Shown in pieces: positions 19-37,324 of a DNA stretch of 38,565 nt. The stretch comes from Gammaproteobacteria bacterium (GTDB taxonomy: Bacteria > Pseudomonadota > Gammaproteobacteria > Ga0077536), in assembly GCA_019747795.1 (NCBI GenBank), contig JAIEQK010000112.1:1-38565 (forward strand), in the 5' to 3' direction. The first letter of the stretch is position 1. Each line of letters starts with the position of its first letter. Below the pieces are notes generated by a model. It was given only the letters and a program-made list of their open reading frames with translations. It did not search any database and was not told the DNA's origin. Both the position numbers and the translations under genes were made by a program.

Positions 19-77
19 GCGCCCGTAGCTCAGCTGGATAGAGTGCTGCCCTCCGAAGGCAGAGGTCGTGGGTTCGA
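19..77 (+). pseudogene. Partial tRNA-Arg(CCG), cut in the T-loop
   Basis: This is a copy of the first 59 nt of the intact tRNA-Arg at 220-296, without a single difference. It keeps the 5' acceptor strand, D-arm, CCG anticodon arm, variable loop and the T-arm up to TTCGA. At that point a 78-bp hairpin-rich element begins. ATCCCGCCG, the expected continuation, reappears only at 156-164, and the acceptor 3' strand and CCA are lost, so it cannot make a normal tRNA. The identity extends upstream to position 1, so the leader and part of the promoter are duplicated too, with an offset of 201 bp. Confidence 0.9.
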
Positions 78-155
78 CAACATCGCGAAGCGATGTTGGA
101 CGCCGCGCAGCGGCGCCCCGCAGGGGCGAGCATCCGCCCAAGCGGATGCGAGTCC
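78..155 (+). repeat. Four-hairpin element inserted in tRNA-Arg T-loop, copy 1
   Basis: Seventy-eight bases lie exactly between TTCGA (73-77) and ATCCCGCCG (156-164), which are adjacent in the intact tRNA. The insert reads as four consecutive stem-loops: CAACATCGC/GCGATGTTG with loop GAA; GCCGC/GCGGC with loop GCA; GCCCC/GGGGC with loop GCA; and GCATCCGC/GCGGATGC with loop CCAA. It ends in GCGAGTCC. It is too short to code for a protein. A same-length copy lies at 377-454, a shortened one at 1273-1326 and a degraded one near 4279-4332. I do not recognise it as a named family. Confidence 0.85.
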
Positions 156-199
156 ATCCCGCCGCGCGTCTCGACCCGTCGACCCGTGCCGAATCCCGC

Positions 200-219: not shown

Positions 220-296
220 GCGCCCGTAGCTCAGCTGGATAGAGTGCTGCCCTCCGAAGGCAGAGGTCGTGGGTTCGAATCCCGCCGGGCGCGCCA
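220..296 (+). tRNA. tRNA-Arg (anticodon CCG)
   Basis: This 77-nt cloverleaf has a 7-bp acceptor stem (GCGCCCG with CGGGCGC), a normal D-arm (TAGCTCAGCTGGATA), an anticodon stem CTGCC/GGCAG around loop CTCCGAA (anticodon CCG at positions 34-36, reading CGG), a T-arm GTGGG-TTCGAAT-CCCGC, discriminator G and an encoded CCA. It is the intact member of a tandem pair with the truncated copy at 19-77. Its last 18 nt recur exactly at 4333-4350. A 25-bp perfect hairpin begins inside its 3' end. Confidence 0.97.
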
Positions 297-343
297 TACA
301 AACGACAAGGGGGCCATCGGCCCCCTTGTCGTTTGTATGGCGC
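291..343 (+). terminator. Hairpin terminator of tRNA-Arg, 25-bp perfect stem
   Basis: Positions 291-315 and 319-343 are perfectly complementary around a 3-nt ATC loop. The left arm starts in the tRNA 3' end, including its CCA. There is no long T-run after the stem, but the inner part CAAGGGGGCC/GGCCCCCTTG followed by TCGTTTGT is terminator-like. Derivatives of the right arm (CCCCTTGTC.TTTGTA) follow element copies 2 and 3 at about 464-479 and 1335-1353. Confidence 0.75.
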
Positions 344-371
344 ACTCGGTGACCTTGGTCCTACCCACCGG

Positions 372-463
372 TTCGACAACATCGCGCAGCGATGCTGGAC
401 GCCGCGCAGCGGCCCCCCACAGGGGCGAGCATCCGCCGAAGCGGATGCGAGTCCATCCCGCCG
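372..463 (+). repeat. Four-hairpin tRNA-associated element, copy 2
   Basis: TTCGA (372-376), a 78-bp insert (377-454) and ATCCCGCCG (455-463) reproduce copy 1 with a few substitutions. Hairpin 4 keeps its stem and changes only the loop (CGAA); hairpin 1 has one mismatch. Upstream it has CCCACCGG in place of tRNA sequence. Downstream it runs straight into CCCCTTGTC.TTTGTA, like the 3' half of the tRNA terminator. It lies between the tRNA and the secreted-protein gene at 511-1077. Confidence 0.85.
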
Positions 464-510
464 CCCCTTGTCTTTTGTACCGAGATGCGATCTCAGCGAT
501 GTGAGATTGC

Positions 511-1077: not shown

Positions 1078-1696
1078 TCACACTCCTTGTCAGTCCCATC
1101 ACTGGAGGGCAGTCAACTGCCGATGTCGCACCCTCCATTTCCAAGGTCCCAACGCGCGTCGGGGACAAGCAATGGACCGAATGCATTAGTTCTGAGCATA
1201 GCGGGCACCTGTTTTTTTTGCAAAAGCCTTAAAAAAGTCCGGGTTATGGCCTGGTTCGACCCACCGGTTCGACAGCTTGCCCGGCGGCCCCCAGGGGCGG
1301 GCATCCGTCGAAGCGGATGCGAGTCCACCCGCCGCCTGCTTGTTGTTTGTATGACCCACCGCTCCCGGTACCCGATCCGCCCCCCTTTCGCCGACCTCCA
1401 TCAGCGAGATCGAACCCCACGCTAAGCCCTCAACCCATTGCACCCGCATACGACCGCGCGCAACGCAGGTGCGAAGCGCACAGCTGATGCGCGCACGGTG
1501 CATGGCCATCCGATAACCAGCAATAGCAAACCTTTGATTCGCAGCTATTTGCCAGTTTGGCTCGTTCGTTGCTCCCGCCTTCTCTCAACCGTCGCAACCC
1601 GACGGCAGGCAGTCGATCCGTAACACAGCGGTGCGACTCGACCGTCTCGCGCCATTCGAGCGTGCGGACGCCAGAGTTCATGCGCCAAAGGAGAGA
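1078..1696. other. Long intergenic region holding element copy 3
   Basis: Apart from the element remnant at 1268-1334 I see no coding sequence. Positions 1211-1236 contain an oligo-T run and an A-rich stretch unusual for this GC-rich window. The open frames here have no ribosome-binding site or recognisable similarity and overlap each other. The region presumably carries the promoters of the divergent genes at 1077 and 1697, but no convincing -35/-10 pair is visible. Confidence 0.5.
1268..1334 (+). repeat. tRNA-associated element, copy 3 (shortened)
   Basis: TTCGA (1268-1272) is followed by 54 bp instead of 78. Hairpin 1 and part of hairpin 2 are missing, while hairpin 4 (GCATCCGT/GCGGATGC, loop CGAA) and GAGTCC are kept, then ACCCGCCG. 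As in copy 2, a CTTGTTGTTTGTATG string like the tRNA terminator's 3' arm follows. It is preceded by GGTTCGACCCACC, so CACCGGTTCGA upstream is shared with copy 2. Confidence 0.8.
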
Positions 1697-4182: not shown

Positions 4183-4274
4183 GCGCCGTCCTCCGCATCC
4201 AGACCTCGATGCATGGCGCGAGCTTCCGAGCCTCGCATTGCCGGGCACGCGCCTGAACTATCCGTCCGACCGAC

Positions 4275-4350
4275 TTCGCGCGCAGGGCGCTGGCCCGCAG
4301 GGGCGAGCATCCGCTCGAGCGCACGCGCGTCCATCCCGCCGGGCGCGCCA
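4275..4350 (+). repeat. Element copy 4 with an exact tRNA-Arg 3' end (attR-like)
   Basis: TTCG at 4275-4278 is followed by degraded hairpins. GGCCCGCAGGGGCGAGCATCC is still clear, and GCGTCC precedes ATCCCGCCGGGCGCGCCA at 4333-4350. Those last 18 nt are identical to positions 279-296 of the tRNA-Arg gene, including the CCA. No tRNA 5' portion precedes them. This is what the distal attachment site of an island integrated in the tRNA 3' end would look like. Confidence 0.8.
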
Positions 4351-37224: not shown

Positions 37225-37324
37225 ATTGTAGGTCGGACTGAAGTCCGACATTCCTTTCTGCGCATTATCGGCGGCGATCCCCCCTGAAACGGGGGGAATG
37301 TCGGACTGAAGTCCGACCTACAAT
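37225..37324. repeat. REP-like inverted pair (BIME-like)
   Basis: Two 30-nt arms (37225-37254 and 37295-37324) are inverted copies, differing only in the 2-nt loop. Each arm is itself a palindrome: TGTAGGTCGGACT-GA-AGTCCGACA. Between them lies CCCCCC-TGAAAC-GGGGGG (about 37279-37296), a third hairpin. A related single unit is at 12007-12024. The pair sits in the divergent spacer between two amidohydrolase genes, 30 bp before one start and 30 bp before the other. Confidence 0.88.

Follow-up and report, generated by a model that had tools for sequence, protein, structure and literature searches.

A four-hairpin element in the T-loop of a broken tRNA-Arg(CCG) copy, probably a tRNA-linked repeat of the rtT/RrB kind

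Why does the T-loop of a tRNA gene contain a row of four hairpins, and what is this element? The window, which is the whole 38,565-nt stretch of gammaproteobacterial DNA analysed here, is one whole contig of genome G000 and starts at the contig end. Close to that end, TTCGA (73-77) and ATCCCGCCG (156-164) are kept apart by 78 nt, and the same two segments are contiguous in the intact tRNA-Arg(CCG) at 220-296. The earlier note had described a 78-nt insert placed exactly in the T-loop and folding into four stem-loops, and this was confirmed by the window sequence and by the fold, which gave a z-score of -4.2 as RNA and -4.7 as DNA, with none of 200 shuffles equally stable. Copies in the window were scored with R1, a covariance model built from eight copies of G000 only. 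The features of the locus are listed below, with the element labelled as a tRNA-linked repeat (TLR), the identity argued for in what follows.

19-77, plus strand: broken tRNA-Arg(CCG), 5' portion covering residues 1-59 of 77 up to TTCGA in the T-loop; 100% identity to positions 1-59 of the intact gene
78-155, plus strand: TLR core of copy 1, four hairpins (R1 94.6 bits at 71-159; fold z-score; covariation in related copies)
78-86/90-98, 101-106/110-115, 116-119/123-126 and 130-137/142-149, plus strand: the hairpins of copy 1, from the fold
156-164, plus strand: first 9 nt of the tRNA 3' part, ATCCCGCCG, from the window sequence
220-296, plus strand: intact tRNA-Arg(CCG) (ARAGORN; Rfam RF00005, 67.5 bits)
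285-349, plus strand: palindrome of the tRNA 3' end, a terminator-like hairpin and the reverse complement of the tRNA 3' end (arms 285-315/319-349, 94% complementary)
about 370-464, plus strand: TLR copy 2, with GGTTCGA, core 377-454 and ATCCCGCCG at 455-463 (R1 86.1 bits)
about 1253-1335, plus strand: TLR copy 3, degenerate, hairpins 1-2 mostly gone and 3-4 retained (R1 27.7 bits)
4263-4350, plus strand: TLR copy 4, degenerate core with the full 18-nt tRNA-Arg(CCG) 3' end ATCCCGCCGGGCGCGCCA at 4333-4350 (R1 23.6 bits)

After ATCCCGCCG (156-164) the broken copy has neither the remaining acceptor strand nor CCA, and copy 1 with its borders (73-164) looks like a tRNA-TLR recombinant. Positions 1-77 are an exact repeat of 202-278; since the contig starts with this 77-base repeat, more units may lie upstream and may have caused the contig break. 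The palindrome at 285-349 contains a terminator-like site at 308-327 and is bordered on both sides by GGTTCGA repeats. The recurrence reported earlier at further sites in the window was upheld for the copies at 370 and 1253, and the additional copy at 4263 had been missed. Copy 2 is 95% identical to copy 1 and begins 73 nt past the intact tRNA-Arg(CCG). Copy 4 matches the 3' end of this tRNA at 18/18 nt, an end reduced to about 9 nt in copies 1 and 2. The idea that copies 2 and 4 enclose a short island was rejected: a Pfam scan returned FmdA/AmdA and TolB_N domains, with a sensor kinase beyond copy 4 and no integrase. Another, REP-like repeat, GTCGGACTGAAGTCCGACCTACA, occurs in the window at 37229-37323 and at L008 1640-1800 and L009 1640-1683; it adjoins some TLRs and is present elsewhere too. 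At L003 1441-1520 and L008 1400-1510, as at 285-349 in the window, the tRNA terminator hairpin is prolonged into the complement of the tRNA 3' end, which might let a read-through RNA capture the acceptor strand of the tRNA.

TLRs beside E. coli tRNA genes have been known since 1978. R1 finds the E. coli rrnB T1-T2 spacer RNA RrB (41.3 bits, E=5e-11) and all four E. coli tyrT rtT repeats (17-22 bits). The Rfam RtT model (RF00391) reached at best 31.1 bits (E=6e-4) against the G000 units, below its gathering cut-off of 45 bits, and at gathering cut-offs Rfam reported tRNA only, and no RtT, in the window; the G000 element is related to RF00391 yet falls short of membership. The view that no named family has this layout therefore had to be given up, since the element matches the E. 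coli TLRs (rtT/RttR, RrB) in sequence and structure, in position and in its tRNA 3'-end repeat (PMC8144298). E. coli has 22 TLRs at ten loci, each ending in 18-19 bp identical to the 3' end of its upstream RNA (PMC8144298). The same three features were found here: location beside a stable RNA gene (copy 1, joined to the broken gene, precedes the intact one), 18-19 nt shared with the tRNA 3' end (copy 4, and 52 of 60 copies with intact ends), and sequence-structure similarity to E. coli TLRs (R1 on RrB and on the four tyrT units). The four-hairpin element is accordingly read as a TLR of the E. coli rtT/RrB kind, with a split T-loop, processing as a tRNA end and a recombination-made fusion at 73-164, and a probability of roughly 75% is assigned to this reading. 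Two further Rfam families gave sub-threshold matches. That of sX4 (RF02223) runs from tRNA-Ser through to the TLR at L095 1329-1489 and L115 1303-1478, and sX4 could likewise represent a trailer of this type at tRNA 3' ends. AaHKsRNA22 (RF02902) matched each TLR unit of L072 2545-2993 at 26-29 bits, and TLR identity is possible for this Aggregatibacter sRNA as well.

The anatomy of the element was analysed in a collection of 226 distinct copies. Of these, 141 follow a tRNA or tmRNA gene at a distance of up to 900 nt, the first copies starting a median of 71 nt after the gene, and the genes concerned are Ser, Arg, Gln, Glu, Tyr, Asp, Lys, Pro and Val tRNAs and tmRNA. Counted back from CCA, identity to the copy's own tRNA extends over 18 or 19 nt in the 52 intact-end copies mentioned above, which is the part of the tRNA that follows T-loop residue 58. 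Residues 54-58 correspond to the left border, TTCGA, seen in 190 of the 226 copies. The left arm is complementary to the 3' end of its own tRNA more than to those of other tRNAs (p=3e-26), a clear result in the comparison with the own tRNA 3' end, whereas setting the right flank against the left arm alone showed only a modest difference. GAACC or a variant pairs with GGTTC immediately 5' of the core in most copies. The complementary arm and the matching right end indicate that a TLR is made up of two copies of the tRNA 3' end, one inverted and one direct, and that in the direct one the T-loop is interrupted by the core at 58/59. This fixed split, present in every tRNA type tested, appears to be a new point, and it supplies a fixed border rule, as the R2 model supplies a means of finding all TLRs. 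With R2, copies were detected in 150/369 genomes of the class and in 61/299 genomes drawn from the phylum, some of them outside the class.

Selection on structure had been suggested from a conserved stem 4 with a variable loop. The remark is correct, but within the window it is weak evidence, and the real covariation comes from other loci: compensatory double changes were found in 25 of the 28 core pairs in an alignment of 85 copies, an alignment that was fitted to the model and so biased toward the structure, with an unfitted MAFFT alignment of eight G000 copies in agreement. The covariation score was 0.53, against 0.12 in shuffled alignments, and 0 of 500 shuffles reached the observed level; shifting the pair partners abolished the signal. 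The covariation-backed core is shared by the rrn operons of E. coli and by tRNA and tmRNA loci across many families. The core helices vary by double substitution nearly without G.U (alignments A3, A5 and A6). The G.U share of core pairs is 1.2%, a value uncommon in helices under selection as RNA alone; the tRNAs of the same loci have 3.3% in their acceptor and T stems. This low share, together with a fold z-score that is strong as DNA too and tandem arrays of differing copy number, is what would be expected if the hairpins were maintained by DNA-level processes such as replication slippage and quasi-palindrome correction, with no RNA function. As a full account this is quite improbable, given that the order of four helices and the tRNA 3'-end mimic are retained across many families, and that E. 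coli makes and processes TLR RNAs (PMC8144298). Given the rare G.U pairs and the one locus with a core in an anticodon loop (see below), there may be a DNA-level contribution to the core.

The covariance-model search also found copies beside other tRNAs in G000 and its relatives, a check that the earlier note had proposed. G000 has fewer than 20 copies in total, the majority at stable-RNA genes or 3'-end fragments of them. Copies lie 77-81 nt past tRNA-Ser(GGA) and tRNA-Ser(GCT), contig C325 carries three tandem units of about 172-175 nt each, and there are additional copies on C298 and at least four on C315 (L082). The arrays on C325, C298 and C315 are preceded by 3'-end fragments of tRNA-Gln(CTG), tRNA-Arg(ACG) and tmRNA, and the intact genes for these RNAs adjoin integrases on C311, C319 and C323. 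The simplest reading would be that three islands integrated at these genes and displaced the TLR arrays to the attR side. The intact tmRNA at C323:39815-40177 lies roughly 0.9 kb from an integrase, and the TLRs of C315 stand behind a tmRNA 3' fragment; from this spacing, an island probably separated the tmRNA gene from its TLRs. Mobilisation of the element as folded single-stranded DNA, or a role as an attC-like site, had been proposed in the earlier note. Copies at several tRNAs, the tandem arrays and borders within a classical integration target would all suit a non-autonomous mobile element or an integron-attC-like recombination site. However, no match to Phage_integrase (PF00589) was obtained on any TLR contig of G000, nor to the Y1 transposase (PF01797), whose two matches in G000 are confined to C134 and C64. 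The copies are few and bound to tRNA, tmRNA and 5S 3' ends, their borders are accounted for by the tRNA 3'-end repeat of a TLR, and the core is four small hairpins, not one bulged hairpin with attC boxes. For the putative islands at tRNA-Gln, tRNA-Arg(ACG) and tmRNA the site used is an ordinary tRNA 3' end, and on their attR side the TLR arrays seem to play no active part. Neither proposal was sustained, and a mobile or attC-like element is regarded as highly improbable.

The reported arrangement is not confined to this window. In 21 of the 226 copies, the reported one included, the 5' part of a tRNA stands directly before the core. Nearly all T-loop fusions break off 18 nt before the tRNA 3' end, and in most fusions an intact tRNA of matching type follows 35-76 nt downstream; some fusions form arrays. 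At L219 the order is three fusions, intact tRNA-Ser(GGA) and then TLRs; a matching arrangement at tRNA-Arg(CCG) is present at L145, in a second species of the genus. At L107, L135, L142 and L147 the core is joined to tRNA fragments starting near the anticodon arm, as after island attachment. An assembly artefact as the sole source of such fusions was rejected, as comparable ones occur in the single-contig genomes G344 (L178) and G054 (L150). No description of a TLR fused within a tRNA loop was found in a search limited to open-licence PMC papers, so that an earlier account is possible; the fusion of the core to a tRNA 5' part appears to be a new point. These natural fusions can be used for testing TLR processing and origin.

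The fusion at 73-164 probably arose when a duplicated tRNA-Arg(CCG) and its own TLR recombined through the GGTTCGA present in each, an event that would drop the intervening terminator palindrome. Palindromes flanked by short direct repeats are deletion hot spots, and the T-loop fusions can be explained by GGTTCGA recombination. This deletion route fails for L150 (G054:C1:457400-459800, minus strand), where three tandem 217-nt copies carry the core in the anticodon loop of broken tRNA-Ser(CGA) genes upstream of the intact gene, and where the anticodon-arm sequence resumes to the right of the cores. Nor does it easily cover L131, at which a fusion is present and the intact tRNA has no TLR behind it. 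Because of the poor fit of these two loci, the possibility is retained, as an unlikely one, that the core is an insertable module for which TCGA^A in tRNA loops is the point of entry, through template switching or a site-specific recombinase, the downstream TLRs being older products. The core has an identical position in the T-loops and in the L150 anticodon loop, behind TCGA and with five of the 7 loop nucleotides to its left, fusions recur across several genera and tRNA types, and fusion cores are paired as well as others (90.4% versus 92.3%, p=0.14). Set against this are the lack of Phage_integrase and Y1 matches on the TLR contigs of G000, the confinement of copies to stable-RNA genes, the count of a single anticodon-loop locus and the ease with which simple GGTTCGA recombination suits the T-loop cases. 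It is similarly doubtful that an inserting core takes the tRNA 3' end along with it, which would make TLRs and tRNA fusions two states of one tRNA-bound element.

For the preferred TLR reading, the anatomy and the E. coli work together suggest a route to a small RNA. Read-through of the tRNA terminator would transcribe the TLR, the core would fold on a stem imitating the tRNA 3' end, and the tRNA 3'-trimming enzymes would release the TLR. A TLR-type RNA released by tRNA 3'-end processing is most likely what the element specifies. In E. coli, TLR RNAs are transcribed and processed (PMC8144298), RrB giving rise to an RNA of about 170 nt, and RtT RNAs near tRNAs have been detected on Northern blots in Actinobacillus (PMC4986893). 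An early claim of a role for TLRs in the stringent response was withdrawn and there is no agreed function (PMC8144298). The only published lead to a function that was found is regulator binding, RrA, RrB and RrF interacting with CsrA and Hfq in vitro (PMC8144298).

Among known systems, the E. coli tyrT TLRs (rtT, RttR, RF00391) share with the element tandem units of about 178 nt downstream of a tRNA, the order GGTTCGA, hairpins and ATCC...CCA, 18 nt of the tRNA 3' end and a complementary left arm. They differ in that the G000 copies stand behind Arg, Ser and Gln tRNAs and tmRNA, have longer hairpins 1 and 4, score below the RF00391 cut-off and include one copy joined to a tRNA 5' part. RrA, RrB and RrF, the TLRs of the rrn T1-T2 spacers, have the four-hairpin core, the site after a terminator and the copied 3' end of the upstream RNA; that RNA is 5S rRNA, and they therefore have no T-loop border. 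Integron attC sites are likewise short imperfect palindromes, whereas the core is four separate short covarying hairpins lacking R and L boxes and an integron integrase. REP elements are also short imperfect palindromes, but unlike REP/RAYT or IS200/IS605 derivatives the core has no RAYT or Y1 link and its copies are not dispersed. Integrative islands at tRNA 3' ends similarly leave a copy of the tRNA 3' end as a direct repeat, but they bear integrases and kilobases of genes, and the TLR core is 78 nt long and gene-free.
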